Source: a virus
Reading direction: 5' to 3' (one strand)
IMG/VR virus record: IMGVR_UViG_3300032323_001229
Span: 1 to 28,399 of that record
DNA: 28,399 nucleotides
Shown here: positions 3,905 to 27,770 of the stretch, piece after piece
Layout: each line of letters opens with the position of its first letter
How positions within the stretch are numbered: position 1 is the stretch's first letter
Translations under genes and position numbers: made by a program
The notes under the pieces: generated by a model
Database searches by the model: none
Told to the model about the DNA's origin: nothing
What the model saw: only the letters and a program-made list of their open reading frames with translations

Positions 3905-6900
3905 ATGGCAGGTGCAGGATCATATACAGTAACTAGAAATGATTTTACATTTCCCCAATGTATTAAAAATATAGAGGCAAGTGGTTTTACATTACCATCA
4001 ACATTTAATTTTTCAGAATGTCCTAATGATAAAAATACTACCGAAGAAGCTGCTAGATATAGAAAACTTGCAAGAGTAAATGAACTTGCAAGTCAATATT
4101 GTTCTGCATTTACGTGGAATGCTTCACCACAGACATTAAAATATTTAGTTAGTGGTAAATACATTGGAGACAATAATTGTCCTCCACCTGATACATCAAC
4201 AAAAGGTTTGGAAGATGTTGAAAAAGAAAATGTAACTCCTCCGGTAAAAAAACGTAGGCTTGCTCCAAACTGGGAGGATGATAAAACATCTAGATCTCTT
4301 AATGAAACTCGTCCTGATTTAGTAAATGTATTTACAACACCGGCACCTAGTCCTAGTCCAACACCGGCACCTAGTCCTAGTCCAACACCGGCACCTAGTC
4401 CTAGTCCAACACCGGCACCTAGTCCTAGTCCAACACCTGCACCTTTACCAGAACCAGAAGGTGAAATAGAAAGACTTGTATTTGAGAATGTTGAGATTGC
4501 ACCTTTTAAGTTGGAAGACTTAAAATCAGAGGAAAATAATATAAAATTAAAATCTGTTCAATACCCAAAAGTTATTATAGAATATCTTGACATACAAGGT
4601 CCTCTGGATCCAAATACTATGATAGAGGGTATAACAATAAATGATGCCCCATTTACTATTGAATCGAAAAATGTTGCAGGACCTGGAAAACCAGATGTTA
4701 TAAATGATGTTGTTTTTCCGCCACAAAAAATTTATGGTCCAGAAATACAATTAAAAAAAGAAGATGGTGGTACTATACCTATAAAATTGGAGTATTTGGA
4801 ATATCCATCGATAGTAATAGACACAGTAAATATTCCAGATCCACCTCCTGCTGATATATTTTTGGAACCAATAGTAATAACAGAAGAAAAAAAAGTTTCT
4901 GGTATTGTTTTAGATACACCAATAACTGAATCTGCTGAAGAAAGAGATGCAAAAAGTGCTTACGTAGTTCCAAAAATAGAAATAAAGGACTTAAATATTC
5001 CGCCTGAAATTACTTTTTATCCTTGGGATGCTGGAGTTGAAGCTCAACCAGAAATTACAATACAACTAAAAGATGCACCCTTTACCTTAGAAATTCCATC
5101 AATAGTAGTAAATCAAAATCCTCAATCCGAAGTTGTAATAGAAAATATAAACACTACACCTTTGGTTATAGAAAGTGTTAAAACTCAAATTCCATCTGGA
5201 TCAATAGAAAGGGTTTTGATTCCTGAAAGAACTATGGAAATAAATGTTCCTGTTAATAAAGATCTTGGCAAAAATATTCAAGAACTTTTAAAAAACAAAA
5301 ATAGAAAAGTTCCGAAAATTGATGTTAAAAATGTTACAATTCCAGTTGTGGTTAAAAAAGTTATTGTTCCACAAGAAAACTTAAACACTATAAATGAACA
5401 AAAACAGAAAAAGGAAGAAGAACAATCTACTAAAAAGAAAAATAATGAAGTTAAGGGAGATACATCTGAACCAACTGCAGAACAAAAAAGAAAAGTTGAT
5501 GAAAAAAAAGGATCGGTAACAGATGAACAAAAAAAAGTTATTGCAAAATCATTAGGATTCAGAGAATCTGGAAATAATTACAAAGCTGTGAACCAATACG
5601 GTTTTGTTGGAAAGTACCAATGGGGTGCTCCTTCATTAAACGACTTGGGTATGGTTAAATCTAATGTTAGAAAAAATTCACAATTAAAGGATCCAAATAG
5701 TTGGAGTGGAAAGTATGGGATAACATCATTAGAACAATTTATGAATAGTCCAGACGTTCAAGAAAAGGTGATGAAAGATTGGATCAATTTATTGGAAAAA
5801 AGATTGAGGGCTCAAAAAATTATAGATGATACCACATCTTCATCTGATATTGCGGGGTATATTGCAACATCACATTTGTTGGGAACCGGTGGTGCTAAAA
5901 AATTAAAACAAGGAATTGTTGGTAAAGATGCAAATGGAACCAGTGCTGTTGAATATTTTAATATTGGAAAAAAATCTGGTTATAATCAACAACTTGTTGG
6001 AAAAAATAGATTTGTTAATTTAAACAAAGATGCGGATTCACCATCAAAAGAACAGCCAGAAGAAAAAAAAGAAACACAACAATCTACAAGTACAACAACA
6101 ACACCGGCTGAAACAAAGAGAGCGGTTGCTAAAGTAAATAAGCCAGTTGTTGTAAGGAGTACAACTCCAATTACAGTAAACTCAAAACCCCCAAGTGACA
6201 ATGAAAAGATAAAATTACAAAATGAGGTTACTAGACAAAAACAACAACAAAAAAATGCTGAAAAGGCGCAAGGTAAAGCCAAAAAGAAAGGTGAACCTGA
6301 TATGGATATTCCTGTAAACAAAAAAGTTCAGGTAACAAACAAATCTTGGGAAAAACCGTCTGCAGTTAGTGTTTCAAAAAATAGAACAGTTCCTGTTTTT
6401 AAGTTTGGAGAAAAAAGACCAAATAAAATGCAGGGATCTAATCATCCAGGATATATCAGTCATGGTAAATTGAAAGATAGTGCAACAAAATCATTTCATT
6501 ATTGGATAAATAAATTCGTATATGATGTTAAATGGAATGGAAGTTCATTTAATATGGAGAATGCAGATAGACCTGCAAGAATTGAAAGTAAAACATCATG
6601 GTATCCTTGGGCAACGGACGCAACTTTTTTAAAACCAACATATTCGCGTCCATCTGAAGAAAATTATTTAAAAATGATGTATGACAAACAGTTCAATAGA
6701 TGGCAAGATTGGAAAAAATTATACAATAAGCCACAACCTGCAATATGGGATTCTGGAAATGGATTTCAAGTTGGTGTTTTGCCGTATGCATTTAATGCTA
6801 ATTGGGATAATCTTGTTAGCAAATTTAGAATAAATGCTTTTGGTCTTCAAAATTTTCCACTTTCTGATGAAATAAAATCTAAATTATCGATGATGGATGT

Positions 6901-7996
6901 TGGTATTATTTTAAATTTTCAACAATCTGGCATAGTAAACCGATACACAGTTGGTGATAAACAGAAAACACCACCACCAGCTGCTTCTGGAACAGAACAA
7001 CATTTAATGATGGTTACTGAATTAACCGGTAATTGGGTATTGGGGAAAAAAGGTGTTGATCCAATGATAGGTTTCTTTTTACCATCAAGTGCAGCTCCAA
7101 ATCTTAATTGGGCACACGAACCTCATTGGTGTGGTATATTTAGTAATTATGTTTCTAGAAAATCTGGCCACTCTTTTAGATCTCCGATTGAAGTTAGAGG
7201 ATATGAGAGGGATACATTAACAGCTGGATTGCCACTAAACAGACCAAGATTGGAAGAAGATGTAAACGAAGAATGGGACGAGGATTTGTGGATTCAAACG
7301 GTTTATGCAGTTAGAGGTGGTAATTTAAGTAAATACGCAACACATACTCCTTGGCTCATAGGTATGTCAAAACATCCTGATAATCCGGAACACCCATGGG
7401 ACTCTGATTATATCGCAAGATATAAAAATCAAATAAATCAAATTTGGTTTGTTGAAAATATACATTATGTAAAAAACGGAAAGAAAGGTGGTTCATTAAC
7501 GGAATGGGGTAAAAAACTTATATTGGGTGCAATAGATCAAAATATAATAGATTGGCCTGCTGCTTTTGCAACAACATATGGTCATGTTGAAGTGTGTGTT
7601 GGGTTGGATTTAGATGGAACTTTATATTTATTTGGAGGAAATAGTGGAGGTGAAGGATCTGACGATGTTATGGGTAATAAAATGGGATTCTGGGATAAAC
7701 ATATATGTTCATATGCTCCTGGAATAAAGGCAAAAAATCCATGGACTGGAGAAGGTTATGACAGTGGAGGGCATTTGTGTTTATCAAAAATGCAAGGTGG
7801 TCATGGTAAAAGACAGCATCCTGGAATAAGTGCACCTTGGGTAAATACCCCAATAATAGAAACATATAAAAACTATTTGGTAAATAATCCTGATCCAAAA
7901 TTTCCAGTTTACAAAACATATTTAGATAGACTTCTTGCAATAAACACAATAGATATGGGTTTAGGTTTAGAAGTATCAACCGATTTACTTTATTAA
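3905..7996 (+). CDS. Giant tail-associated protein with two peptidoglycan-hydrolase-like domains
   Basis: A 1363-residue multidomain protein. Residues 1-140 are an unrecognised N-terminal domain. Residues 145-182 are four perfect TPAPSPSP repeats plus a partial one. Residues 190-500 hold degenerate beta-type repeats rich in Ile, Val and Pro (INDAPFTIES, LKDAPFTLEIP). A Lys/Glu linker follows. At about 543-690 is a lytic-transglycosylase-like domain: candidate catalytic Glu554 in FRESGNNYKAVNQYGFVG, followed by KYQWG. A second charged linker ends near 810. The C-terminal part holds an NlpC/P60-CHAP-type cysteine hydrolase (about 1070-1260) with Cys1076 in HEPHWCGIFSNYV, His1227 in YGHVEVCVGL and Asn1246 in YLFGGNSGG. 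That GHV...GGN pattern resembles TIGR02594-type proteins. It directly follows the spike gene, so it probably digests the cell wall during DNA injection. No signal peptide is visible, which argues against a secreted endolysin. The region at 811-1060 is unassigned. Confidence 0.75.
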   Translation: MAGAGSYTVTRNDFTFPQCIKNIEASGFTLPSTFNFSECPNDKNTTEEAARYRKLARVNELASQYCSAFTWNASPQTLKYLVSGKYIGDNNCPPPDTSTKGLEDVEKENVTPPVKKRRLAPNWEDDKTSRSLNETRPDLVNVFTTPAPSPSPTPAPSPSPTPAPSPSPTPAPSPSPTPAPLPEPEGEIERLVFENVEIAPFKLEDLKSEENNIKLKSVQYPKVIIEYLDIQGPLDPNTMIEGITINDAPFTIESKNVAGPGKPDVINDVVFPPQKIYGPEIQLKKEDGGTIPIKLEYLEYPSIVIDTVNIPDPPPADIFLEPIVITEEKKVSGIVLDTPITESAEERDAKSAYVVPKIEIKDLNIPPEITFYPWDAGVEAQPEITIQLKDAPFTLEIPSIVVNQNPQSEVVIENINTTPLVIESVKTQIPSGSIERVLIPERTMEINVPVNKDLGKNIQELLKNKNRKVPKIDVKNVTIPVVVKKVIVPQENLNTINEQKQKKEEEQSTKKKNNEVKGDTSEPTAEQKRKVDEKKGSVTDEQKKVIAKSLGFRESGNNYKAVNQYGFVGKYQWGAPSLNDLGMVKSNVRKNSQLKDPNSWSGKYGITSLEQFMNSPDVQEKVMKDWINLLEKRLRAQKIIDDTTSSSDIAGYIATSHLLGTGGAKKLKQGIVGKDANGTSAVEYFNIGKKSGYNQQLVGKNRFVNLNKDADSPSKEQPEEKKETQQSTSTTTTPAETKRAVAKVNKPVVVRSTTPITVNSKPPSDNEKIKLQNEVTRQKQQQKNAEKAQGKAKKKGEPDMDIPVNKKVQVTNKSWEKPSAVSVSKNRTVPVFKFGEKRPNKMQGSNHPGYISHGKLKDSATKSFHYWINKFVYDVKWNGSSFNMENADRPARIESKTSWYPWATDATFLKPTYSRPSEENYLKMMYDKQFNRWQDWKKLYNKPQPAIWDSGNGFQVGVLPYAFNANWDNLVSKFRINAFGLQNFPLSDEIKSKLSMMDVGIILNFQQSGIVNRYTVGDKQKTPPPAASGTEQHLMMVTELTGNWVLGKKGVDPMIGFFLPSSAAPNLNWAHEPHWCGIFSNYVSRKSGHSFRSPIEVRGYERDTLTAGLPLNRPRLEEDVNEEWDEDLWIQTVYAVRGGNLSKYATHTPWLIGMSKHPDNPEHPWDSDYIARYKNQINQIWFVENIHYVKNGKKGGSLTEWGKKLILGAIDQNIIDWPAAFATTYGHVEVCVGLDLDGTLYLFGGNSGGEGSDDVMGNKMGFWDKHICSYAPGIKAKNPWTGEGYDSGGHLCLSKMQGGHGKRQHPGISAPWVNTPIIETYKNYLVNNPDPKFPVYKTYLDRLLAINTIDMGLGLEVSTDLLY
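4337..4447 (+). repeat. Four perfect 24-bp tandem repeats plus partial copy (TPAPSPSP linker)
   Basis: The unit starting ACACCGGCACCTAGTC is repeated at 4337, 4361, 4385 and 4409 without a single difference. A diverged partial copy (ACACCTGCACCTTTACC) follows at 4433. It is in frame and encodes TPAPSPSP four times, a proline-rich extended spacer. The stretch is visibly richer in G and C than its surroundings. Exact identity of the copies suggests recent expansion by slippage or unequal recombination. Confidence 0.95.
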
Positions 7997-8006
7997 GAGG
8001 TGTTGT

Positions 8007-8429
8007 ATGGACAGTAAAAAGTTTTTTATGAAAATTAGAGAAATAATAAGAGAAGAAATTCAGTATGCATTAGAATCCAAAAGTAAAAATGAAACTAAAA
8101 TTTCTCAAAAAAACGCTATTGATCACGGAATTAAATTGGTTAATAAAGTTAATGAACATTCAAAAACAAAAGAAAAATCAAAGTCACAAAATTTTTCAAG
8201 TATAAACGATTTGTTAGAAGAAACAAGAAGAAGTTTACAAGAAAGTTATGATATGGAAGATGAATATAGATTTGATTCTGGAATGGCAGAAAATTTTGGT
8301 TCAACAAGAACAGGAAATGCTATACCACAAGGTTATTCACAATCAGAAATACCAACAGAAGTAATGAGTGCATTAACAAGAGATTATTCTGCACTAATGA
8401 AAAAAATTGAAGAAAAGAAAGGAGGTTGA
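8007..8429 (+). CDS. Small helical protein next to gp25, function unknown
   Basis: A 140-residue, highly charged protein. The N-terminal helix (KKFFMKIREIIREEIQYALE) is amphipathic. The middle is Lys/Ser-rich and likely disordered. The C-terminal third contains the segment DSGMAENFGSTRTGNAIPQG and ends in a helix (SALTRDYSALMKKIEEKKGG). AGAGGTG sits just before the ATG, and the gene lies 10 bases after the two-domain hydrolase and 4 bases before the gp25-like gene. I do not recognise the family. The position inside the baseplate gene block suggests a small tail or baseplate accessory protein. gp53 was considered but no supporting motif is visible. Confidence 0.7.
   Translation: MDSKKFFMKIREIIREEIQYALESKSKNETKISQKNAIDHGIKLVNKVNEHSKTKEKSKSQNFSSINDLLEETRRSLQESYDMEDEYRFDSGMAENFGSTRTGNAIPQGYSQSEIPTEVMSALTRDYSALMKKIEEKKGG
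8418..8425 (+). promoter_or_regulatory. Strong ribosome binding site deciding the TTG start of the gp25-like gene
   Basis: AAAGGAGG lies at the end of the preceding coding region, 8 bases before TTG at 8434. A near-perfect SD at this spacing supports initiation at TTG. Confidence 0.75.
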
Positions 8430-8433
8430 GTAA

Positions 8434-8934
8434 TTGGCAAGATTTCAAAATAGAATTAGGTATGAACTAAACCAATTACCATCGGAACCAACACAAGTTT
8501 TACCGATTGGTGTTAGTATGCCGTTTAATAATCCTAACGGTGTATTTTATCAAACATATACAAATTTGGATCAAGTTAGAACAAATTTAAAAAATCTTTT
8601 ACTTACTGCTACTGGTGAAAGATATATGTTGCCTCAATTTGGAACGAACCTTAGGTGGTTGTTATTTGAAAATATAAGTGATGAATCAGAATTTAGACAA
8701 TCATTGGTCGGAACCATCACCGAGGCAGTTTCAACATGGATGCCATATTTAGGTTTATCTGATATGAATGTAAAATTTAATTTAACCGATGATGGTAGAG
8801 TAGTTGATCCAAATAATGCAGTTTCAATTTCATTTATAGCTAGTATAATAGGATCACCATCATATTTTCCTATTCAAATATTTATATCAGAGGAAGGTAA
8901 TTTACAAGTAATAGAGGCAATATACAATGAGTGA
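8434..8934 (+). CDS. 25: gp25-like baseplate wedge protein
   Basis: A 166-residue protein of the GPW/gp25 family, conserved in phage tails, type VI secretion and related contractile injection systems. It joins the wedge core that connects baseplate to sheath. The family motif is clear: Gly61-Glu62-Arg63 followed by Pro67-x-Phe69-Gly70 (GERYMLPQFGTNLRWLLFE), with an upstream helix TNLDQVRTNLKNLLLTATG and a C-terminal beta region ending in NLQVIEAIYNE. It is somewhat longer than T4 gp25 (132 residues) because of an N-terminal extension. TTG is the start. The end overlaps the gp6-like gene by 8 bases, as expected for subunits that assemble together. Confidence 0.9.
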   Translation: MARFQNRIRYELNQLPSEPTQVLPIGVSMPFNNPNGVFYQTYTNLDQVRTNLKNLLLTATGERYMLPQFGTNLRWLLFENISDESEFRQSLVGTITEAVSTWMPYLGLSDMNVKFNLTDDGRVVDPNNAVSISFIASIIGSPSYFPIQIFISEEGNLQVIEAIYNE

Positions 8935-10819
8935 TTTGGTTAAAAAAGACATAAGATATTTGGCAAGAGATTTTGCATCTATAAAGTCAAATTTAGTAGA
9001 TTTTGCGAGAAATTATTTTCCAAATACATATCAAGATTTTAACGAATCATCTCCTGGAATGATGTTTATGGAAATGGCTGCATATGTTGGTGATGTGCTT
9101 TCATTCTATACTGATGTTAATTTACAAGAATCAATGATACTCCATGCAAGTGAAAAGTCAAACATTATGAATATTGCACATTCACTCGGATATAAACCAA
9201 AGTTAAAATCAGCCGCAACAGTTGAGTGTGATGTTTTTCAACTTATTCCATCAAAAACTGTTGATGGTGAACTTGTTCCTGATTTTAATTATGCCTTTGC
9301 TATAGAACCTGGAATGATATTGGCATCAGACGAACCAAATGTAAATAATAGATTTAGAACTACTGAATACATTGATTTTAGATTTAGTAGTAGTTTCAAT
9401 CCAACAGAAGTTACTCCATTTGAAATAGATGATATTACCGGCGAAATAACATTTTGGCTTTTAAAAAAATCTGTTCCGGCCATATCTGGAGAAATTTTAT
9501 CAACGTCTTTTAATTTTGGATCACCAAAAAAATATGATGTTGTCCAATTTACAGAACCAAACCTAATTGAAGTTTTATATGGTGAAGATACAGAAGGAAA
9601 TCGTTGGTATCATGTTCCATATCTTGCACAAGATACTATATTTGATCCAGTTCCAAATATTCCAAGAAATGAAAAACATTTAAGTATTTACAGAAATGAA
9701 ACACCGTATTTGTTAAAATTGAGAAGAATATCAAGACGTTTTACGATGAATACAGATGGAAATGGGAATCATGAAATTGTATTTGGTGGAGGAATGACCA
9801 ATTTAGACGATGAAATTTTAATACCAAATCCAGATTTAATAGGAAATTCTTTAACAGGAGTAGAAACTTCTGTATCAGTAGACATTGATCCTTCAAATTT
9901 TTTGAATACAAAAACATATGGTCTTGCTCCATCCAATACAACTATAACAATGTATTATACTGTTGGTAATGGAGTAAAAGACAATATTGGATCCGAAGTA
10001 ATAAATAGGGTAATGTCCAGAACGATTCTTATAGATGAAACTGGTTTAGATTCCGTATTGTATAGCCAATGTGTTTCTAGTTTAGCAGTATCAAACCCTA
10101 TTCCTGCAGTTGGCGGTAAAGATGGTGAAGATGTAAATGAAATTAGACAAAACGCTTTGTCATATTTTGCAACACAAAACAGAGCCGTTACAAAAGAAGA
10201 TTACATAATTCGTGCTTATAGTTTGCCATCAAAATATGGTGCAATAGCCAAGGCATATGTAACAAGAGATACTCAATTAACATATGATGATATATTCAAT
10301 AGTGAAAGGCGTCAAAATGGATTGGCACTTGGATTTTATGTATTAGGATATGATGGAAATGATAAACTTGTTTCTGTAAACAATGCAACAAAAGAAAATT
10401 TAAAGACATACATGAATTATCATCGTATATTAACAGATGCTATTGAAATAAAAGATGCATTCGTTATAAACATTGGGATTGAATTTGATATAATAACGCT
10501 TCCCGACCAAAATGGTAATCAAGTTATATTAAGATGTATTGATAGACTAAAAAAATATTTTAATGTAAAAAATTGGCAGATAAATCAACCAATAGTTATT
10601 AGTAACATTTATACGGAACTTGATAGAGTGGAAGGTGTTCAAACTGTAACAAATGTTAAGATAGTAAACTTACATGATCAAACAATGGGTTATTCACGTC
10701 ATGTCTATAATATAGATAAGGCAACCAAAAATGGAATAATATTCCCATCACTTGATCCATCTATTTTTGAAATAAAGTATCCAGATACCGATATTATTGG
10801 TAGAGTGAGGGCATTTTAA
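8927..10819 (+). CDS. 6: gp6-like (baseplate J) baseplate wedge protein
   Basis: A 630-residue protein, close to the 660 residues of T4 gp6. The N-terminal block has DFNESSPGMMFMEMAAYVGD, then LSFYTDVNLQESMILHA and NIMNIAHSLGYKPK (about residues 39-92), characteristic of gp6/gpJ-type wedge proteins. A central beta domain follows. The C-terminal core contains GKDGEDVNEIRQNALSYF and QNRAVTKEDYIIRAYSLPSK (about 400-440), which is the Baseplate_J-type region. In contractile tails this protein forms the wedge ring that holds the baseplate together and opens on contraction. Its start overlaps the gp25-like gene by 8 bases and its stop overlaps the next start by one base (TAATG). Confidence 0.9.
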   Translation: MSDLVKKDIRYLARDFASIKSNLVDFARNYFPNTYQDFNESSPGMMFMEMAAYVGDVLSFYTDVNLQESMILHASEKSNIMNIAHSLGYKPKLKSAATVECDVFQLIPSKTVDGELVPDFNYAFAIEPGMILASDEPNVNNRFRTTEYIDFRFSSSFNPTEVTPFEIDDITGEITFWLLKKSVPAISGEILSTSFNFGSPKKYDVVQFTEPNLIEVLYGEDTEGNRWYHVPYLAQDTIFDPVPNIPRNEKHLSIYRNETPYLLKLRRISRRFTMNTDGNGNHEIVFGGGMTNLDDEILIPNPDLIGNSLTGVETSVSVDIDPSNFLNTKTYGLAPSNTTITMYYTVGNGVKDNIGSEVINRVMSRTILIDETGLDSVLYSQCVSSLAVSNPIPAVGGKDGEDVNEIRQNALSYFATQNRAVTKEDYIIRAYSLPSKYGAIAKAYVTRDTQLTYDDIFNSERRQNGLALGFYVLGYDGNDKLVSVNNATKENLKTYMNYHRILTDAIEIKDAFVINIGIEFDIITLPDQNGNQVILRCIDRLKKYFNVKNWQINQPIVISNIYTELDRVEGVQTVTNVKIVNLHDQTMGYSRHVYNIDKATKNGIIFPSLDPSIFEIKYPDTDIIGRVRAF

Positions 10820-17383: not shown

Positions 17384-18514
17384 ATGTACCCGATTAAACC
17401 GTATATGTTAAAACCCACACAGACAAGTAATTTATCAGGAGTTCAAGATTCTCAAATTCAAAAACTTGTTCATACTAGAGGATTGTGGGGAAATAGTGTT
17501 GCTAAACTGCTAACATTTTACACAAGTTCAGCACAAAATACAGACTCAAAAGAATATTATTATGAAGTGTGGTCTTCTTCTTCGCTTGATTGTGAAGATG
17601 CAAGAATGTTTTCAGTTGCATACGGTCATGTAAGTGGTTCAGGATCACTAAACGATGGAGGTCAAGTTTCAGATACACCAACAAGAGCTGTTTATTCTCA
17701 ATATAAATTGTCTTGTCTTGATGGCGATGAAACCGGATTTATATTACAAGGAGAGACATCACCTATTTCTCACTTTTATGCTATAAACATAAACAGAGAT
17801 AAATTTGGTGATAAATTGGATCCGGGTAATTTCCAATTAAGTTTGAGTGAATTGAACGGTAAATCATATGCTAATAATGTTTATACTGGAAGTAATGTTC
17901 AAGTTTCTTCTTCAAAGAATATAATTTCGTTAATAGATGATTCAAAAGACGAAAAAAATAATTACGAATATACTGGCAGACCATCACTTCCACGAAATTT
18001 AGTAAGTGGAACTCTTGCTGGTGGAATTTATAATCCATCTGCTCCTCATTATTACGGTCTCGTTTATCCAGATAGAGGTGTTATATTGATTGATGCCGAT
18101 AAACTCAATTCAAAAATTTCATTCAATACTGTATCTGGAAGTAACTTGAATGGTGATAATGCATATAAATTATTTACATCAATAAGTGGTGCGGCTGCCG
18201 TTACAAAGGCAACTACGAATGAAGGATTTACCGCTCGTGCAGTTGAAGTAAAAAATCAACATTATGTTTTTGTTAGAATAAACAATGATGAATTTAATTA
18301 TTCTAACAATCCAACATACGTTACTTCATCTACAAATCCATACGACCAAGGTTCTATAACAGAACAATCATTTATAGAATATCCATATTCTTATATTACT
18401 ACGATTGGACTTTATAATAACGATGAAGAATTAGTCGCGGTTGGTAAATTAAGTAAACCAGTATTAAAATCATTTACATCGGAATTGTCAATCACAGTAA
18501 AATTAGAGTATTAA
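17384..18514 (+). CDS. Paralogous appendage protein 1 (shared C-terminal module)
   Basis: A 376-residue protein that is almost entirely the shared region. Landmarks in order: EYYYEVWSSSS, FSVAYGHVSGSGS, HFYAININRDKFGDKLDPGN, IISLIDDSKD, YYGLVYPDRGVILIDADKLN, SFNTVSGSNLNGDNAYKLFT, then SISGAAA, NNDEFNYSNNPTYV, ITTIGLYNNDEELVAVGKLS and a final beta strand ELSITVKLEY. Each landmark has a counterpart in the following three genes, and the last two also occur in the fifth. No catalytic residues are apparent, and the composition (Ser, Asn, Tyr, Gly) suits a beta-rich virion surface protein. The SD is weak (GGA, 8 bases before the ATG). It is probably a baseplate- or fibre-associated appendage component, inferred from position and composition. 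Confidence 0.7.
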   Translation: MYPIKPYMLKPTQTSNLSGVQDSQIQKLVHTRGLWGNSVAKLLTFYTSSAQNTDSKEYYYEVWSSSSLDCEDARMFSVAYGHVSGSGSLNDGGQVSDTPTRAVYSQYKLSCLDGDETGFILQGETSPISHFYAININRDKFGDKLDPGNFQLSLSELNGKSYANNVYTGSNVQVSSSKNIISLIDDSKDEKNNYEYTGRPSLPRNLVSGTLAGGIYNPSAPHYYGLVYPDRGVILIDADKLNSKISFNTVSGSNLNGDNAYKLFTSISGAAAVTKATTNEGFTARAVEVKNQHYVFVRINNDEFNYSNNPTYVTSSTNPYDQGSITEQSFIEYPYSYITTIGLYNNDEELVAVGKLSKPVLKSFTSELSITVKLEY

Positions 18515-18518
18515 GGTT

Positions 18519-19625
18519 ATGGAAAATTTTTCTACATACAAAAAATTTGACGATACAACAGATGTTATTTATGACCAAAGGGAGTTAATTACAGCTCCCT
18601 TATGGTCAAATTCACAGGCATCGTTAAGTTCAATCTATACAAGTTCTTTTCAAAATAATGTTCAAAAAGAATATTATTATGAAGTTTACAATAGTCAATC
18701 AAATGCATATGGAGCACAACCACAATTTTCAGTAGCATATGCTGATTTATTTGGAAGTGGTTCTGGAACTGGTTCACTTGAAGTTGATTTGTTGATAAGA
18801 CCAACAAAAACAAATTATTTACAATATAGACAATTACTTTTGCCAATAGGAATATCCACATTTACTTTTATGGATGGTATGTCTACTGAACAAACATCTG
18901 ATTACGTTTATATTATAAATGTAAACAGATCTAGATTCAAAGATAGAATGGACACAGGAAATTGGCAACTTTCACTTGCATCGATTGATCACACTGGTGG
19001 CGTAAACCCAACTGCAAGTATAATAACTTTAATAGATGATTCTGGTGGTGCAACTTCTGAATTAACTGCCCAAGGTGGTAGAGTTTTACAAATACGAAGT
19101 GGTAGTATAACAAATGGTGTGAAAACAGATGATACAACGCCATATGGTTTATTTTATCCAGATAATGGAATACTTGTTCTAAACGGTATCGCTTTAGATG
19201 CATCTGCTTCATTCAGAACTCTTAGAAATCCGGCTACTGCTAGTATCACTGGATCAACAGGAGTTATAGGTGCAGATAACGCTTATCGTTTGTTCACATC
19301 AATAAGTGGTGCTATGTCAAGAAACAAAACACTGTATTCATTTGAAGGTAGAACTAGCGAAGTAATATCATCTACATATTATTTTTCTAGATTGAGATGG
19401 AATGAATTTAATTGGACAAATAATCCAAGTTTCTTCAATCAAAGTTCTTCAAACTATGGTTATTTGAAACATAAGAGAATGGAAGTAGAGGGGCCACAAG
19501 TATACCCAACAACTGTTGGTTTATACGATAATAATGAAAATTTATTGGCAGTTGCAAAATTGAGTAAGGCCATTAAGAAAACGTTTGACCATGAAATGAT
19601 AGTTAAAATTAAATTAGATTACTAA
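18519..19625 (+). CDS. Paralogous appendage protein 2
   Basis: A 368-residue protein of the same architecture as its upstream neighbour: KEYYYEVYNSQS, FSVAYADLFGSGSG, VYIINVNRSRFKDRMDTGNW, IITLIDDSGG, YGLFYPDNGILVLNGIAL, GADNAYRLFTSISGA, RWNEFNWTNNPSFF, PTTVGLYDNNENLLAVAKLS and MIVKIKLDY. It starts 4 bases after the preceding gene. A 17-base DNA identity (ACATCAATAAGTGGTGC at 18176-18192 and 19296-19312) remains between the two genes at the SISGA motif, although most of the DNA has diverged. This points to duplication followed by long divergence. The role is presumably structural. Function is unknown beyond that. Confidence 0.7.
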   Translation: MENFSTYKKFDDTTDVIYDQRELITAPLWSNSQASLSSIYTSSFQNNVQKEYYYEVYNSQSNAYGAQPQFSVAYADLFGSGSGTGSLEVDLLIRPTKTNYLQYRQLLLPIGISTFTFMDGMSTEQTSDYVYIINVNRSRFKDRMDTGNWQLSLASIDHTGGVNPTASIITLIDDSGGATSELTAQGGRVLQIRSGSITNGVKTDDTTPYGLFYPDNGILVLNGIALDASASFRTLRNPATASITGSTGVIGADNAYRLFTSISGAMSRNKTLYSFEGRTSEVISSTYYFSRLRWNEFNWTNNPSFFNQSSSNYGYLKHKRMEVEGPQVYPTTVGLYDNNENLLAVAKLSKAIKKTFDHEMIVKIKLDY

Positions 19626-19639
19626 TACGAGTTTTATAG

Positions 19640-22582
19640 ATGAGCATTTTAGTTCCAGTTACAGAAGAAGATTACGGAAACGTAACGACCAGAACCGTTA
19701 GCGAAATATTGGGTGCAGTTACAACTGCACAATTACAAAATGATGTAATTACCGCCGATGTTTATTCTACGGTTGTAAAAAATATAGTAGATAATATTTC
19801 TATGATACCAAACGGCGATATGGTATTATCTACTATTCAGAATTGGAACCAGTCCAACTCATTCCAAAATAACATAATTTCTTCAGCATTAGGACAATCC
19901 GTTACTGCAACGGTTTCAAATACATCGGTGATGACATTTAACCCTGCACCAACTGCCGTTGCTGGAATAGGTCCTGGTGTTGGATCTGCTAGAAGTTTTG
20001 GGTTTGATAATACGGATGTTTCACTTGGTGTTGGATCTGCTAGAAGTTTTGGGTTTGGAACTGGATCTAATTTAGATTTAACTAATAGAAATAACCGTAT
20101 TGGTATAGTTGATGATTTTGATGATCCAATTGCATTTACAACTTTATTGAATTGTTTGAATGATCCAACAAAAAAACCAATAATTCAGATAAAAATAAAA
20201 CAAGAATTATATCAAACATCAGTTGGTTCTAGTAATCCAGATTTTCAATTTTTAGATGATCAATTTAGATGTAGACTTGTTGCTGATATATGGCATTGTT
20301 GTCCTGGTGAAGAAACAACTACTACTGTACAAAGATCAACAATAACACAAAAAAATGAAATCAAAAAATTAAAATCTAGAGTTATTCTTGCCGAAGCAAA
20401 AGTTTCATATTGGTATGAAGAATGTGGTGCAGATGGAAAAGGTAGAAGACCTGTTTATCAATGGTATTTTGATCAAAATGACGTAATAGATCCTACTTCT
20501 TGGATGCAATATGATTCCAATGAAAATATGATTCCATTGGATCCAAGTATTGTTGATTTATTGATAGACGGTAAGGCACAGTCATTAGGTCGAGGTAAAT
20601 ATCATTTAGGCGATGCATCTTCATGTACATTTTCACATGATCCAACATTTCAATGGATAGAATACCTTGATCATGAAATGGGTAAATATGGATTTAGACC
20701 AGCAGATGAGGCAGAAATATTCAATGGAAGTAATGAAAATGTTCAAAGATTAGGTTTTACAGATAATCCAGATAGAGTAAAGACTGTTCCAGGATCCGTT
20801 GGTGGTAATTTTGTAAATAAAATTGCATATGCTTATCGTGCAACTTGTGCTGGAAAGGGTGATTGTATAGGTGAAGTAAAAACGGAAGATTGTAATACAG
20901 TTGAAAGTGCATCACCAACCGTAACAAGAAATCAAAAAGATGTCTATGGTAATGATTTACCATTGCAAGAAAGAATACTCAATACCGAATTTGGTGTTAG
21001 AGTTGAAGGACATCCTTGTTACGAGGCAACAAGAATGACATATGGTAGATTCCAACCAATAGAAAGACAATGGACAATATCAACAATTTGTCCAGGAAAA
21101 CCAGATGTTGTTCAAACAGAATGGAGAGTGGATAATTCATCTAATTTACAACCCGTTGATACTGTAATAAGATATACTGATGTAAAATTTGCATTTACCG
21201 ATGATGGAAATTTAAAATATCCAAATGAATGTATCGGTAGAGAAGTTGCACGTGATGAAGAACCTTTTATAGATAAAAACGATCCGTGTGGTTGTTATGA
21301 AATATTGGCATCAAGAATAAGTGTTCAATATCCTGATTATCTAACTGCTGGGAGTCCTGGATATGTAAAGGGTCCAGAAATTGCATCTAGAATAGATTAT
21401 AGTGGATTGGGACCTGGATTAAAATTAAACAGAAAAATTAGATCTGCAGAATGTATTGATGAACCAATACGAGTATATCATGCATTATTCAATGGTAAGG
21501 ATATTTTATCAGGAAAAGAATCAATCAGAACTCGTGGTTTGTTCAATGGTTCACAATCACTCGATTGTATTTTTACTGCTTCAATGACAAATACATCTTC
21601 GTATGATTATTATTATGAAATAACCGATTGTGAAGACTGTGATAGAACGCCGTATTTTGGAATTTCATATGGACATAGAGGTGGTTCTGGATCATTTTAT
21701 AGTGGATATGAAGTGATGGATTCTCCAACAAAGGCAATCTACACTCAAACAAGATTGTTAGGTCTTGAAATGCCTGAAAAATATTTCAAATTTTATGAAA
21801 ATAATATTTTAACCGAAGCTGAAGACATATATGTAATAAATTTCAATCGTGACGCTTTTGGAACAAAAATTGATCCAGGTAATTTTGAAATAAATCTTGC
21901 ACAATTAACTGGTAATGCTTACTCAAATAGTTCATATACTGGAAGTAATGTTGCTGTTAGTTCATCAGGAAAGGTAATATCTCTGATAGATACATCAGGT
22001 GACTACGCTCAAGAGTTGTATTGTCAAAATTCTGTTTATACTTCATATTATCTTATTAGTGGAAGTTTGTTAAACGGTGCTTATGACCAATTAGACACAA
22101 CATTAAGTTCAGTAGACGGATCTGTGATGAATGCATATGGTATAGTATTTCCAAATATAGGCATCATAGTTTTAAATGCATCAAAATTAAACTCTGAACT
22201 TTCATTTAATAGTGTTACTGGAAGTAACATTCGTGGTGACAATGCTTATAAACTATACACATCAATATCCGGTGCCGCTGCATTAGGACATCCTATGAAG
22301 GCTAGAAGTGTTGATCAAAAAACAACAAATCATTATTTCATACGAGTTGGTGCGGCAACATCAAATTGGAGTAATAACCCAACATATGTCATAGATGATC
22401 CAACTGATTCAACAATAGGTACAATCAAACATAACTGTTTTACAGATGAACCGGTAACATACATAACAACTATTGGTTTGTATAATAATGCTTTGGATTT
22501 ACTTGCAGTTGCTAAGTTGAGTAAACCTATTCAAAAAACAGAGAATACAGATGTTCTATTGAAAATACGTTTAAATTGGTAA
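19640..22582 (+). CDS. Paralogous appendage protein 3 with a large cysteine-rich N-terminal region
   Basis: A 980-residue protein. Residues 1-110 are a Thr/Ser/Val-rich region, followed by a duplicated GVGSARSFGF segment. Residues from about 170 to 665 contain most of the roughly 20 cysteines of the protein (for example WHCCPGEE, EECGADGKG, CAGKGDC, KNDPCGCYE and ITDCEDCDRTP). A neighbouring 1339-residue protein has only two. The last 340 residues are the shared module: YDYYYEITDC, FGISYGHRGGSGS, IYVINFNRDAFGTKIDPGNF, VISLIDTSGD, YGIVFPNIGIIVLNASKLN, GDNAYKLYTSISGAA, WSNNPTYV, ITTIGLYNNALDLLAVAKLS. The cysteine-rich part could bind metal or be disulphide-linked in the virion. It is not recognised as a known domain. 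The SD is weak. Confidence 0.7.
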   Translation: MSILVPVTEEDYGNVTTRTVSEILGAVTTAQLQNDVITADVYSTVVKNIVDNISMIPNGDMVLSTIQNWNQSNSFQNNIISSALGQSVTATVSNTSVMTFNPAPTAVAGIGPGVGSARSFGFDNTDVSLGVGSARSFGFGTGSNLDLTNRNNRIGIVDDFDDPIAFTTLLNCLNDPTKKPIIQIKIKQELYQTSVGSSNPDFQFLDDQFRCRLVADIWHCCPGEETTTTVQRSTITQKNEIKKLKSRVILAEAKVSYWYEECGADGKGRRPVYQWYFDQNDVIDPTSWMQYDSNENMIPLDPSIVDLLIDGKAQSLGRGKYHLGDASSCTFSHDPTFQWIEYLDHEMGKYGFRPADEAEIFNGSNENVQRLGFTDNPDRVKTVPGSVGGNFVNKIAYAYRATCAGKGDCIGEVKTEDCNTVESASPTVTRNQKDVYGNDLPLQERILNTEFGVRVEGHPCYEATRMTYGRFQPIERQWTISTICPGKPDVVQTEWRVDNSSNLQPVDTVIRYTDVKFAFTDDGNLKYPNECIGREVARDEEPFIDKNDPCGCYEILASRISVQYPDYLTAGSPGYVKGPEIASRIDYSGLGPGLKLNRKIRSAECIDEPIRVYHALFNGKDILSGKESIRTRGLFNGSQSLDCIFTASMTNTSSYDYYYEITDCEDCDRTPYFGISYGHRGGSGSFYSGYEVMDSPTKAIYTQTRLLGLEMPEKYFKFYENNILTEAEDIYVINFNRDAFGTKIDPGNFEINLAQLTGNAYSNSSYTGSNVAVSSSGKVISLIDTSGDYAQELYCQNSVYTSYYLISGSLLNGAYDQLDTTLSSVDGSVMNAYGIVFPNIGIIVLNASKLNSELSFNSVTGSNIRGDNAYKLYTSISGAAALGHPMKARSVDQKTTNHYFIRVGAATSNWSNNPTYVIDDPTDSTIGTIKHNCFTDEPVTYITTIGLYNNALDLLAVAKLSKPIQKTENTDVLLKIRLNW
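19975..20057 (+). repeat. 32-bp exact direct repeat, 51-bp period, in frame
   Basis: The sequence beginning TGGTGTTGGATCTGCTAGAA is identical at 19975-20006 and 20026-20057. It encodes GVGSARSFGF twice in the N-terminal part of the cysteine-rich appendage protein. The exact identity implies a recent duplication. Confidence 0.95.
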
Positions 22583-22598
22583 CATGGTTTAATATATT

Positions 22599-25500
22599 AT
22601 GGCACTAAATGCAAAAGAACAAATATTGGTTGATGCTTATAAATCTGCACTACAATCAACAAATACCGAAACTATAAAAAGTGCTGCGGAACCAATACTG
22701 ACGTTGATTACGAAGCCGGATGGGCAAAATGAATTAGATAAAATTGGAAAGGTAATTCGTTTAGTAAATGATTACATAGATAATTTTTTAGTAAAATTTA
22801 GTCCAAAACCAACTGTACTAATATCATTTGATTCTTGGTTAAAAACGAATAAACAATCGGACATTGCTTCTATAATAGAAGTATTGACAAAAAATCCATT
22901 ATTCATTGAGTTCAAATCTGTTCTTCAAATTGTTTCTCCTATTACATTTAATTTGGGAACAACGGATTGGATTGCTTACTTTTTTGATCCTGTTTCTATA
23001 ACAACAGAATATAGCGTTAGTGAAGTCGGTTGTATTGGTGCAATATCTGGCAGTGATGGAATGGTTATACCGATAGGTAGAACAATTAGGGTATTAAATC
23101 TGCCAATAACTGCAGAAATTAAAAAACAAGAACAATTTAAAAATAGAATAAATAGAATGACCGTCACACGAGTTGATGGCAAACGTGAAATAATAAAAGA
23201 TAGACAACCACCAAAAATGGAAGTTTATTTTGCAACAAATGATAGAATTAGATTCGGTGCCGATGTTGAAACACAGAAGGTTTTATCAAAGTTATCATAT
23301 CAATATAACAAAGGATTATACGAATCCAACACAACAAATTTCGTTAATCCGGTTCAATTCCACGATGGAAATGAATATTCATCTCCTCCATTTGCTCCAA
23401 GATTAAAAACTGAAAACACTGGTGATTCAGTATATGATTCATTGATTGCAAGTAGATCAGGTAAACCATTATACCAATTATACAATTATAAAATTGGTAG
23501 ATTGTCAAATGAAATGCTACAACAAATAGAAGAAGATACTAATATATCCGCAGCATTTTTATCATCGTTAGACGTTATTTGGTTGGAACAAGAAAATTAT
23601 CCTAATCAACCCGGATTGAGTTATGTTCCATTGTTTCCAACTTGGCCTAAAAATCTAAATGGACAACATATAAACAATATGGATCAGTCGTATAAGGATT
23701 CTTGGAATACATCAAAAGTAACTATGTACCCAAAATTCATATTTTTGGTAGAAGAAGATGTATTAAATTCTTTGGTTGAATTTTTTCAAAAAGTAAAAAC
23801 CAAACCAATAGATTTTGCACCAACTCAATATACTGATGTAGTTCCAAAAATAGTATCGAGAAACGAAGTAATCACACCATTAAATGTTAAAGGTGATAAA
23901 ACTGTAAATCCACTTGAATTTTTAACAAATCGTGGATTGATAATAAGATATGGACAACAATATCTATTAAATTATCAAGAAGATTTACAAGTTGAAAATG
24001 GAAAGTTAATGGTATGGTTCAGAGACGTTGTTTTGCCAAAACTGGGAACAACAGAAATATATCGAATGAATAATCTTATTACTGACATAAATTTTGCTAC
24101 AGATATAGTTGCATCTCAATTATTTTTTCAGTTATATTCTAATTGGACAAATATAAATGGAAACATGGTTGTTGATGAAGTGACATTTTTTGAAACATAT
24201 CCTGTATTAAACAATCAAATAGATTTAATACAAAAGTCACTTACAGAATCTTGGAGAGAAACAAATTCTACTGGAAATTCTGTTATATGGAAAACTATAA
24301 ACTTAAAGTTATTAGTTTTATTAAAAGACTATTTGGAGTTTGTTAGATCAAGAGAATATCCAACTGTTTCTGAAATAAGTGTAGTAAAATCGCAATTTGG
24401 CATAATAGATGATTTTAGATATAGACGAGATTTTGAAGGTGGTCCTGTTGATGAATTGGGATTTCTGATTGATGATGGTGTTACTGAAAGTGGAATTGAA
24501 AGTGAATGGATTCCTACTGCAAACTATTCATACAAGGGAATATCGAAAGGATTTGATTACATTTCAAATGAAGTTGAATACAAGTCAAGTGGATTGTTTA
24601 AATGTATCGGTGAAAGGATGAACACATTTTTCACTGGATCAGCACCACCAAGTCATTCAAAATACTATATCCCAATTTATAACAATATAGTTGGTGGTGA
24701 AGATTCATACCACCAATTTGATATATCATTTGCACATAAAGCTGGTTCTGGTTCATCATTCTTTTTTGACGATGCAGAATACTATCCGTCAAAAACAATG
24801 TATAAAAAATATTTGTTAGAATGTTTGGGTAGAAGCACTGGTGAATTTACATTTAAGAATAATAAAACATCTGATTATTTTTACATAATACAATTTGATC
24901 AAGACTCATTTAAGGATAGAATAGATCCAGGAAATATACAAATAACACTTGCTCCAATTTCATCAAGTCAAAATCAGTTGATAAATACTGGAAGTAATTT
25001 TTCAATGGCAACTTCGTCAGGAACTATATTCACTTTAATAGATGATTCATCAGATGAAAGAGAGGAAATTACAGTTCAGGCGGATTACATACAAGATTAC
25101 TATTATTTAGTTTCTGGTTCAATTCAACAAGGAACACACGATGATTCAAGTGCAAATGCATGGGGTGTAATATTCCCAAGAACAGGACTAATAATTTTGG
25201 ATGGAACTGTATTGGATCAATCGTGTTCTTTCAATACAGTAACGGCATCAATGGATGGTGACAATATAAGAAAACTATTTGTATCTATAAGTGGATCATG
25301 TACATCAACTACTGTAAGAACTGTATCTGGATCTTGGTATGCTCGTTCACATGAAAAATATGTAAGAGAATCTTATATTTGTAGAGTTCATGCAAACGAA
25401 TTTAATTATTCAAATAATTATACATATAGTATTCCAAGTGATTTGAATGTTTTACCAGAAAAGTTTAAGTTTGATTCTATTACATACATAACAAGTATTG

Positions 25501-25610
25501 GCCTTTACAATTCAAATAGAGACTTGGTTGCTGTTGGTAAACTAAAAAGACCTTTATACAAAGATAGTACAACCGAATATGTTTTTCAAGTAAGAGTGAG
25601 AAATAACTAA
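22599..25610 (+). CDS. Paralogous appendage protein 4 with a unique 660-residue N-terminal region
   Basis: A 1003-residue protein. The first part (about 1-110) is helical (KEQILVDAYKSALQSTNTET, IGKVIRLVNDYIDNFLVKF). A long mixed region to about 660 has no motif I recognise. The last 340 residues carry a diverged copy of the shared region: FDISFAHKAGSGS, FYIIQFDQDSFKDRIDPGNI, IFTLIDDSSDE, WGVIFPRTGLIILDGTVLD, SFNTVTASMDGDNIRKLFV then SISGS, HANEFNYSNNYTYS, ITSIGLYNSNRDLVAVGKLK. The gene lies 16 bases after its paralogue and one base before the next gene. No clear SD precedes the ATG. A structural fibre or baseplate-rim role is inferred from context only. Confidence 0.7.
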   Translation: MALNAKEQILVDAYKSALQSTNTETIKSAAEPILTLITKPDGQNELDKIGKVIRLVNDYIDNFLVKFSPKPTVLISFDSWLKTNKQSDIASIIEVLTKNPLFIEFKSVLQIVSPITFNLGTTDWIAYFFDPVSITTEYSVSEVGCIGAISGSDGMVIPIGRTIRVLNLPITAEIKKQEQFKNRINRMTVTRVDGKREIIKDRQPPKMEVYFATNDRIRFGADVETQKVLSKLSYQYNKGLYESNTTNFVNPVQFHDGNEYSSPPFAPRLKTENTGDSVYDSLIASRSGKPLYQLYNYKIGRLSNEMLQQIEEDTNISAAFLSSLDVIWLEQENYPNQPGLSYVPLFPTWPKNLNGQHINNMDQSYKDSWNTSKVTMYPKFIFLVEEDVLNSLVEFFQKVKTKPIDFAPTQYTDVVPKIVSRNEVITPLNVKGDKTVNPLEFLTNRGLIIRYGQQYLLNYQEDLQVENGKLMVWFRDVVLPKLGTTEIYRMNNLITDINFATDIVASQLFFQLYSNWTNINGNMVVDEVTFFETYPVLNNQIDLIQKSLTESWRETNSTGNSVIWKTINLKLLVLLKDYLEFVRSREYPTVSEISVVKSQFGIIDDFRYRRDFEGGPVDELGFLIDDGVTESGIESEWIPTANYSYKGISKGFDYISNEVEYKSSGLFKCIGERMNTFFTGSAPPSHSKYYIPIYNNIVGGEDSYHQFDISFAHKAGSGSSFFFDDAEYYPSKTMYKKYLLECLGRSTGEFTFKNNKTSDYFYIIQFDQDSFKDRIDPGNIQITLAPISSSQNQLINTGSNFSMATSSGTIFTLIDDSSDEREEITVQADYIQDYYYLVSGSIQQGTHDDSSANAWGVIFPRTGLIILDGTVLDQSCSFNTVTASMDGDNIRKLFVSISGSCTSTTVRTVSGSWYARSHEKYVRESYICRVHANEFNYSNNYTYSIPSDLNVLPEKFKFDSITYITSIGLYNSNRDLVAVGKLKRPLYKDSTTEYVFQVRVRNN

Positions 25611-25611
25611 T

Positions 25612-27363
25612 ATGGGATTCATGGTAGATGGAGATGGTGTATACTATGTAATGAAACGTCTACGAAAAGGCGATTACACAGTAAGACCAATTACGGTTAA
25701 AAAGTTATGGGAGTTTTCAACAAATACTGCCAGTATAAACTATTACCCAAATTTTAATATCCAACCATTTAGAAATTTATATCCTGAAAATCATAAATAC
25801 TTTGGTAATGTTGCAAATGTATCATCTTCTTTGTATGAAAGAGTTTTTCAATCTCAAAGTTTGGATCCAAAATTATTGTGGTACTATTTGGATCACAATT
25901 ATTATGCTGATCATAAAACAGAAAAGATGCCATCAAACGTAACAGGTACAGATTTTAGTTCCTACTTGGCAGAATCAGGATCCATGTTATTGATACCTAG
26001 ATCAACTGTTGGTGAGGGTATTTTAGAAAAATCATTAGAAATAACAAATTATAATTACTACACAGAATCACTTCAATATATTATGGTTGATGATGGTAAT
26101 GGTAATGTAATAGATACAACATTTGATACTTCAAAATTTATTACAAATGATAGTCTTTTGTTGTATGTTGGATTCAACGAAAAATATAGAGAATACGAAT
26201 TTGTTAAGAAAAAGTTGCCATATATTTTAGACTATGCAACTGAAACATCAAATGTTTCTGTAAGTAATGTTAGAAAAATAAAATATGAACCAGGTATACC
26301 AACAACCGATACATCACAATCATCGGGAACTTGTGCATCGTTAAATGGATCATATCTACAAGTAAATGAATCAAATAAATTTAATTTTTTAGTAAGAGAA
26401 GACTTCTCTTTCAGTTTTTGGATAAACACCCCACCATCACAATCTAGTGAAGTTTTGCCATATAATTACTTATTCAATAAGAATACAAAACGATTGGTGG
26501 ATATACAAACTACTGATAAAATAAATGGAATGTCCAAAGTTACCACTAATGAAGAAGTCAGACCAACACAACAATATCCGTTTGATATTTCTATAACAAA
26601 TTCAACATCCGATAAAAGTAATGTTATAAAATTTTCTCATTCGTCTAACTTACAATTTTCAGAAGCAACATCAAGTCAATTATCTTCTGGAAAATGGCAT
26701 CATGTTGTGTGTCAAAAAAGTTCAAGTTATTTACAAATATGGATTGATGGTGTTTTAAATTCAAATGTAAGTTCTTCAATTTCTTTTCCGGTAACAAATA
26801 GACATAATTTTTATGTTGCAGGAAATGGAACTGATGAATCATATTTTTCTGGATCATTAGACGAAATACGAATTTATAAAAAAGGACTATCTTCTTCGGA
26901 AATATCCAATCTATATGATAATAGTTTAAGAACAGGATATGCATATCAGACCGCTAGAATTGGTAATATTTTTTACAAACAAGGAATAATATCTATAACC
27001 GATCCAAGACCAAAATATGCAAATGCATTTTTAGGAAAAAATGGAAACTTTGACTATGAAGTTACAAAACATGGATTTGATGGTAGATTTAGATCACAAA
27101 CAACTTTTTACGAACATGAAATTATTTGTAAAATAAAAAAGAATGAGTTTAATTTTACTCAAAATCCTTCGATAAAAAAAGATAGAGATTCTGATGTTTC
27201 TCGTGTTGATGATTATGTAACAAGTTCATTTTTTAATCCATATGTAACTACTATTGGTTTATACAACGACCACCAAGAATTGATTGCTGTTGCCAAAATG
27301 GCAAATGCCGTTCCTAAAAAAGATGATATAGATGTTAATTTTATAATAAGATTTGATGTTTAA
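25612..27363 (+). CDS. LamG-domain appendage protein ending in the shared C-terminal motif
   Basis: A 583-residue protein. The N-terminal region (1-235) includes LWEFSTNTASINYYPNFNIQ and LLWYYLDHNYYADHK and is not recognised. Residues about 238-440 form a LamG/concanavalin-type domain: LNGSYLQVNESNKFNF, DFSFSFWIN, GKWHHVVCQKSSSYLQIWID then GVLNSN, and FSGSLDEIRIYKKGLSSSEI. LamG-type domains bind glycans or other surface ligands. The last 80 residues contain KKNEFNFTQNPSI and VTTIGLYNDHQELIAVAKMA, the end of the module shared with the four preceding proteins. The rest of the 330-residue region is absent. It may be a host-surface-binding appendage. The next gene starts on its stop codon (TAATG). 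An in-frame ATG at 25621 is an alternative start. Confidence 0.75.
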   Translation: MGFMVDGDGVYYVMKRLRKGDYTVRPITVKKLWEFSTNTASINYYPNFNIQPFRNLYPENHKYFGNVANVSSSLYERVFQSQSLDPKLLWYYLDHNYYADHKTEKMPSNVTGTDFSSYLAESGSMLLIPRSTVGEGILEKSLEITNYNYYTESLQYIMVDDGNGNVIDTTFDTSKFITNDSLLLYVGFNEKYREYEFVKKKLPYILDYATETSNVSVSNVRKIKYEPGIPTTDTSQSSGTCASLNGSYLQVNESNKFNFLVREDFSFSFWINTPPSQSSEVLPYNYLFNKNTKRLVDIQTTDKINGMSKVTTNEEVRPTQQYPFDISITNSTSDKSNVIKFSHSSNLQFSEATSSQLSSGKWHHVVCQKSSSYLQIWIDGVLNSNVSSSISFPVTNRHNFYVAGNGTDESYFSGSLDEIRIYKKGLSSSEISNLYDNSLRTGYAYQTARIGNIFYKQGIISITDPRPKYANAFLGKNGNFDYEVTKHGFDGRFRSQTTFYEHEIICKIKKNEFNFTQNPSIKKDRDSDVSRVDDYVTSSFFNPYVTTIGLYNDHQELIAVAKMANAVPKKDDIDVNFIIRFDV

Positions 27364-27770
27364 TGCGTAGAAATCAAGTTGCAATAAAACATGGGTTTCG
27401 TAGTGGGTTAGAAGATACTGTAAATGATTTATTAAAAGAAAGTAAAAAATCATTTAGTTATGAAACTGAAAAAATATCCTACATACAACCAGAGACTAAA
27501 CACAATTATACACCAGATTTTGTTCTAACCAAAATATCTGGTCAAAAAATGTATGTTGAAACAAAGGGTAGATGGGTAAAGACAGACCGATTGAAATTTG
27601 ACCTTATATTTGAACAATATCCTGAAATAGACATTCGTTTCGTATTCCAAAATCCTAATGCAAAGTTATACAAAGGAAGTAAAACAACTTATGCCCAATA
27701 CTGTGATAAGAAGGGTTGGCTATGGGCAAAAAAAGAAATACCGGAAGATTGGTTGAAAGATTGCTTGTAA
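27363..27770 (+). CDS. T7 endonuclease I-like Holliday-junction resolvase
   Basis: A 135-residue protein matching the phage T7 endonuclease I (gp3) family in length (T7: 149) and active-site layout. Glu17 lies in FRSGLEDTVNDLL, Asp52 in YTPDFVL, and Glu66 and Lys68 in YVETKGRW, corresponding to E20, D55, E65 and K67 of T7. The DRLKFDLIFEQYPEIDIRFV helix-strand segment follows, and the C terminus has YAQYCDKKGWLWAKKEIPED. The enzyme cuts four-way and branched DNA, a task needed before packaging that phage T4 gives to the unrelated gp49. The ATG overlaps the stop of the LamG appendage gene by one base, so it would be made together with the late structural proteins. The gene is followed immediately by a hairpin. 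Confidence 0.9.
   Translation: MRRNQVAIKHGFRSGLEDTVNDLLKESKKSFSYETEKISYIQPETKHNYTPDFVLTKISGQKMYVETKGRWVKTDRLKFDLIFEQYPEIDIRFVFQNPNAKLYKGSKTTYAQYCDKKGWLWAKKEIPEDWLKDCL

Follow-up and report, generated by a model that had tools for sequence, protein, structure and literature searches.

The 28,399 nt (28.4 kb) contig of IMG/VR record IMGVR_UViG_3300032323_001229, hereafter called the window, comes from an uncultivated T4-like phage. One of its open reading frames (ORFs), termed P0001, probably encodes a virion-associated baseplate lysin that combines a glycosidase module with a peptidase or amidase module and occupies a gene slot whose content is swapped among related phages. All positions given here are those of the whole window (Table 1), and residue numbers refer to P0001. 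A preliminary description of the DNA letters had already proposed that this protein joins a transglycosylase-like domain to an NlpC/P60-CHAP-like domain. The slot in which the gene resides had gone unseen, and this context alters the meaning of the finding.

The residues on which that proposal was built are all present in the translation: Glu554 (in RESGNNY, from residue 553), GKYQWG at residue 569, Cys1076, His1227 and Asn1246. The gene also lies where it had been described, directly behind the putative spike gene, whose end at position 3880 is separated from the start of P0001 by 24 bp inside the block of baseplate genes. P0001 thus resembles virion-associated lysins in having a wall-lytic type of domain encoded within a baseplate and tail gene cluster. 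Near-identical homologues exist on separate contigs, one of which keeps the fusion (locus L005) while two others (L006 and L009) hold parts of both domains. The ratio of nonsynonymous to synonymous substitution (dN/dS) is 0.07 in the first domain and 0.04–0.18 in the second, indicating strong purifying selection. Because homologues on separate contigs retain the fusion under such low dN/dS values, the joining of the two domains goes beyond chance. An assembly chimera was considered and ruled out, given that both domains, or parts of both, recur on these three other contigs.

The lytic-transglycosylase-like (SLT-like) domain is well supported. Profile phrog_27932, annotated ‘baseplate hub subunit and tail lysozyme’, matches it with E = 5e-38 over positions 333–490 of 855, a stretch that covers only the enzyme part of the hub proteins of Rhizobium phages. 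Specifically, the domain is homologous to one inside the hub proteins of Rhizobium and Agrobacterium phages, with 37–46% identity over ~130–160 residues. A scan of viral contigs for SLT-like domains yielded 102 loci, 80 of which were kept, in ORFs of many sizes; among the 41 homologues in the resulting alignment (A4), the motif residues Glu, Ser, Gly and Gln vary little or not at all. A structural model of the domain (predicted local distance difference test score, pLDDT, 87; predicted template modelling score, pTM, 0.81) was compared with the PDB by Foldseek. The top matches were MltE, Cj0843, Slt and MltD (probability up to 0.99, E = 0.02–0.5, TM ~0.4–0.5), with MltE at a probability of 0.97 and E = 0.02. 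The model therefore points to a lysozyme-like fold that is only distantly related to the known lytic transglycosylases. Furthermore, Glu554 falls on the catalytic Glu of Escherichia coli Slt70 (RESGNNYKAVNQYGFVGKYQ versus RQESAWNPKVKSPVGASGLMQ) in an alignment that is itself weak (E = 0.05–0.14). The E-S-...-G-x-x-G-x-x-Q motif is present, and its Glu and Gln are spaced by 19 residues in both proteins. Sequence searches of solved structures with P0001 and with alignments A2 and A4 gave low-complexity or chance matches, or none, and the A4 profile found none among PDB sequences.

The C-terminal domain, which we call P1C, extends from about residue 870 to residue 1363 and is much larger than the stretch of 1060–1265 first assigned to it. 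Model TIGR02594 matches it weakly (E = 8e-5) through two short collinear stretches, in which model positions 35–56 correspond to residues 1069–1090, around the Cys, and positions 90–115 to residues 1225–1249, around the His and Asn. Relative to TIGR02594, P1C carries ~100 extra residues between these two parts. In the predicted structure of P1C (model position plus 872 gives the residue number), DSSP places Cys1076 (position 204) at the start of a helix (203–214), His1227 (355) at the start of a strand (355–362) and Asn1246 (374) just past another strand (367–372). As modelled, this Cys-His-Asn order, with the Cys starting a helix and the His starting a strand, is the papain-like order. CHAP proteins recur among the top viral fold matches of P1C, none of which is significant.

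P1C appears to be confined to phages. Searches with the C-terminal 563 residues found nothing in 50,697 phage records (E ≤ 10) or in plasmids (E ≤ 1). No occurrence was confirmed in 84,980 prokaryote genomes by a scan that requires exact conserved peptides. Homologues came from viral contigs, which were scanned with alignments narrower than the whole family. Judged from these sequences, P1C is a large, divergent domain family with active-looking and catalytically degenerate branches.

The setting of P0001 became apparent from 80 loci retrieved with two gp6-like proteins, one from the window and one from Microcystis phage Mel-JY01. Nearly all genes between positions 342 and 27,363 of the window have homologues in Mel-JY01 in the same order, mostly with 40–70% identity and in a few cases lower or partial. 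P0001 has no homologue in that phage; the same gene position between conserved neighbours is held by a 343-residue GH19-like protein (WWT39505.1) with an unrelated N-terminal tag, and neither an SLT-like domain nor P1C was found in Mel-JY01. Both borders of the slot are present in 43 loci, representing 21 distinct slots. Across the 43 loci the interval between the spike gene and the neighbour of the gp25-like gene is hypervariable, measuring between 58 bp and 7.2 kb and containing zero to three large genes, with conserved flanks. A recognized wall-hydrolase-type domain is found in 19 of the 21 distinct intact slots: GH19, GH24 with VanY, M15-like, CHAP, C39-like (L081), NAGPA, or SLT and P1C in either order. 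Two loci (L078 and L079) have an empty slot and an SLT-type ORF upstream, and a 371-residue protein without a recognized enzyme fills the position in Flavobacterium phage immuto, which is distant.

Different slot proteins also have N-terminal modules in common. A tag of 45–60 residues is common to GH19 slot proteins (Mel-JY01, L010 and L013) and P1C slot proteins (L012, L027 and L033), so that one and the same tag has been joined to unrelated enzymes. In slots with three genes, the first protein begins with a different N-terminal domain, P1N, and the last contains P1C; the window protein joins both in one chain. P1N is conserved and was missing from the domains first listed for P0001. Iterative hidden Markov model (HMM) searches place it at the head of the first slot protein in five further loci (L039, L044, L045, L048 and L064). 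The tag and P1N may both serve as docking modules, and this phage group appears to swap wall-cutting modules at a fixed spot beside the spike.

Two further domains were seen in slots of relatives. NAGPA, a phosphodiester glycosidase, occurs in L039 (5223–9026) and L053 (1430–6305), and L053, L056 and L075 each have two copies, one closing the large protein and the other in a 214-residue ORF of its own. The N-terminal 215 residues encoded at L048 5440–8958, which we call ‘ABH’, are possibly alpha/beta-hydrolase-like by eye and recur with P1C in many large slot proteins.

Several results weigh against assigning two enzymes to P0001. A search of the whole protein against Pfam at E ≤ 1 returned no family matches, the SLT-like domain included. 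The TIGR02594 match scores 22.9 bits where the cut-off is 70.55, and 9 of 27 P1C family members match that model, all weakly. The P1C model has a pLDDT of 67, and its fold searches gave no match at E ≤ 0.001. Finally, the Cys is not conserved: the 31 non-redundant P1C sequences carry Cys (14), Ser (11), Asp (5) or Ala (1) at this position. On balance, the NlpC/P60-CHAP-like domain of the preliminary description stands with moderate support, as papain-like by its triad residues, its TIGR02594 stretches and the order seen in the model; it is not proven to be a CHAP domain.

These results bear on an explanation that we regard as unlikely, in which only the SLT-like domain is catalytic and P1C, descended from a papain-like fold, has a structural or wall-binding role, hence its persistence without the Cys. 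P1C is indeed retained in nearly all large slots even though 17 of the 31 sequences have lost the Cys, its invariant residues include a Trp and a Gly outside the triad, and its fold search was without a significant match. However, the complete Cys-His-Asn triad is kept in the clade of the window and in ten other loci, and it is precisely these residues that the two TIGR02594 stretches span. Likewise, there are slot proteins of 476 residues that consist of little beyond a tag and an intact P1C.

The substitutions of the Cys show a pattern of their own. Every P1C with Ser or Asp is accompanied in its slot by an additional peptidase (M15, VanY or CHAP), and no other peptidase was detected in slots with a Cys-type P1C, some of which lie on incomplete contigs. 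On a tree the substitutions reduce to two changes, giving only two independent contrasts for Cys loss versus the presence of another peptidase. Because Cys loss with a replacement peptidase amounts to about one event, the correlation is statistically weak and the association is suggestive only. We hold it to be an evenly balanced proposition that, in this widespread and mostly uncultivated T4-like group, a fixed exchange slot joins conserved N-terminal docking modules to interchangeable enzymes (GH19, GH24, SLT, M15/VanY, CHAP and NAGPA), with P1C acting as an active peptidase or, where another peptidase is present, as a pseudoenzyme scaffold.

The remaining parts of P0001 fit an extended protein. 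The proline-rich spacer noted earlier is encoded by a 24-bp tandem repeat (4335–4444), and the charged linker is present at residues 703–870. What had been termed a beta-repeat stalk is retained as a stalk, with residues 178–422 aligning at ~25% to sister proteins encoded in L028 and L167; its repeat nature is not, since 43 of 500 shuffled sequences reached the level of its self-alignment. In the sister group (L028, L167 and L172) the SLT-like domain is absent and the corresponding part holds a second P1N-like stretch. The two-enzyme form is therefore specific to the subclade of the window and to some relatives with a different domain order.

If P0001 is a virion-associated lysin with two activities, P1N would dock it to the tail tip, and the proline-rich spacer and extended stalk would hold it outward. 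The SLT-like domain would then cut glycan strands with Glu554 as the catalytic acid, and the papain-like Cys-His-Asn domain would cut peptide or amide bonds. Together they would perforate the murein so that the tail tube can pass during infection.

A quite improbable alternative is that P0001 is a lysis gene, an endolysin that merely sits in the baseplate cluster. Its domain kinds do occur in endolysins, and GH19 slot proteins match endolysin PHROGs. Nevertheless, a chain of 1363 residues that includes an N-terminal module, a spacer and a stalk does not resemble an endolysin, and the place between the spike and the neighbour of the gp25-like gene is constant in all 43 loci. Moreover, Mel-JY01 carries a second, compact GH19 protein of 200 residues (record positions 93,920–94,522) outside the structural block. 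This protein is 33% identical to the slot GH19, which has a tag and a linker. The compact GH19 is likely the endolysin of Mel-JY01, and the slot GH19 would be a virion-bound copy. Least probable of all is an outer polymer (capsule, slime or a chitin-like polysaccharide) as the target instead of murein, for which one can cite the NAGPA and GH19 domains added in the slot of some relatives and the downstream fibres with common C-terminal domains, but the closest fold matches of the SLT-like domain act on murein and the GH24 lysozymes and VanY-type peptidases found as slot alternatives are murein-acting families.

The preliminary description had also held that the wall-cutting function moved from the spike to P0001. 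Spike and enzyme are separate ORFs, and the single chain of gp5 type with OB fold, lysozyme and beta-helix is absent; neither the window spike nor its 13 homologues match any lysozyme model. With SLT-like domains inside Rhizobium-phage hubs and GH24 in the slot of relatives, a wall-cutting domain on a separate protein behind a lysozyme-free spike is upheld, and a move from the spike would be one possible history. A comparison of the spike profile with the Rhizobium hub profile was not significant. T4 gp5 resembles P0001 in its presumed task and genome neighbourhood, and some relatives bear a T4-type GH24 lysozyme domain in the slot. In contrast to T4, the spike of the window lacks lysozyme, the enzyme is on its own protein, and the glycosidase belongs to another family. 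The hub and tail lysozyme of the Rhizobium and Agrobacterium T4-like phages (phrog_27932; e.g. Rhizobium phage IG49) likewise has its SLT-like domain in a baseplate protein. There it is embedded in a hub/spike chain with a DUF2345-like C-terminus, whereas P0001 stands apart as a protein of its own, has a stalk and carries a second enzyme-like domain. In some relatives (L020, 1125–3389 and 3408–5228; also L048, L064, L045 and L054) the spike and the first slot protein have a leucine-rich-repeat-like C-terminal domain in common, suggesting that modules are exchanged between spike and slot as well.

Tail lysins with two activities are already known. Phage phi29 gp13 has a lysozyme domain in addition to its peptidase, and like the predicted window protein it is a single tail-tip protein for glycan and peptide cutting. 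This tail-knob lysin carries an M23 D,D-endopeptidase (PDB 3CSQ; PMC9662197). It differs from P0001 in belonging to a short-tailed phage of a Gram-positive host, in using a metallopeptidase and in having no stalk. The hub protein gp15 of Anabaena myophage A-1(L) has endoglucanase and peptidase activities in vitro (PMC10966104). Like P0001 as predicted, it is a baseplate protein of a contractile tail with two wall-hydrolysing domains; unlike P0001, it is the hub itself, and its enzymes are by description of other kinds. As far as the searched literature goes, the novelty lies in the separate protein with its stalk, in the P1C family and in the exchange slot. A 2017 review assigned virion lysins with two lytic domains to phages of Gram-positive bacteria (PMC5380687); the two-enzyme tail lysin predicted here belongs to a phage group whose named relatives are on record from Gram-negative-type hosts (Flavobacterium and Microcystis). 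The slot provides a naturally varied set of tail lysins, interchangeable behind conserved flanks, that could show which combinations of enzymes a given host wall demands of a contractile tail, and P1C adds a divergent family to the known phage domains.

Table 1. Features of P0001 and adjoining baseplate genes in the window.
Feature	Position	Strand	Details and basis
Putative central spike, 472 aa	2462–3880	+	Matches DUF2345 weakly; lacks a lysozyme domain; upstream slot border, kept in relatives
P0001, putative virion-associated lysin, 1363 aa	3905–7996	+	ATG start; GGAG upstream
P1N, aa 5–99, probable docking module	3917–4201	+	Iterative HMM search
Proline-rich spacer PAPSPSPT, aa 144–180	4335–4444	+	24-bp tandem repeat, 4.6 copies
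Strand-rich (beta-strand-like) stalk, aa 178–470	4436–5314	+	Alignment to sister proteins
SLT-like domain, aa 534–702	5504–6010	+	Putative catalytic Glu554 at 5564–5566; profile, model and alignment
P1C, aa 873–1363 (core 983–1341)	6521–7993	+	Cys1076 at 7130–7132, His1227 at 7583–7585, Asn1246 at 7640–7642; papain-like by motif
Small conserved protein	8007–8429	+	Downstream slot border
gp25-like baseplate wedge protein	8434–8934	+	PF04965, E = 4e-8
gp6-like baseplate wedge protein	8927–10819	+	Bait for fetching 80 syntenic loci

Other genes of the window and its relatives deserve mention. The gp25-like wedge protein of Mel-JY01 (L002, 15,566–16,069) is annotated ‘tail lysozyme’, which probably reflects older naming; the actual lysin candidate is encoded two genes upstream of it. 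Relatives of gp6 with 41–45% identity (L182–L188) occur in metagenome-assembled genomes mostly labelled Flavobacteria, and Microcystis is the recorded source of the closest named relative. Immediately before the baseplate block, the window encodes a ClpP-like serine protease (342–1001; PF00574, E = 7e-32) that is 52% identical to its Mel-JY01 counterpart. Next to it lies a gene for a 123-residue protein (1003–1374) with a hydrophobic N-terminal segment and a weak match to the Rz-like spanin profile phrog_89 (E = 0.009). Several consecutive tail-fibre-like proteins encoded at 17,384–27,363 have a C-terminal region of ~350 residues in common, whole or in part, which is also found in the Mel-JY01 counterparts and may be a duplicated anchor or trimerisation domain. 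At the end of this series (27,363–27,770), a 135-residue protein resembles, by eye, a T7 endonuclease I-type resolvase; the Mel-JY01 gene at that place is annotated differently.

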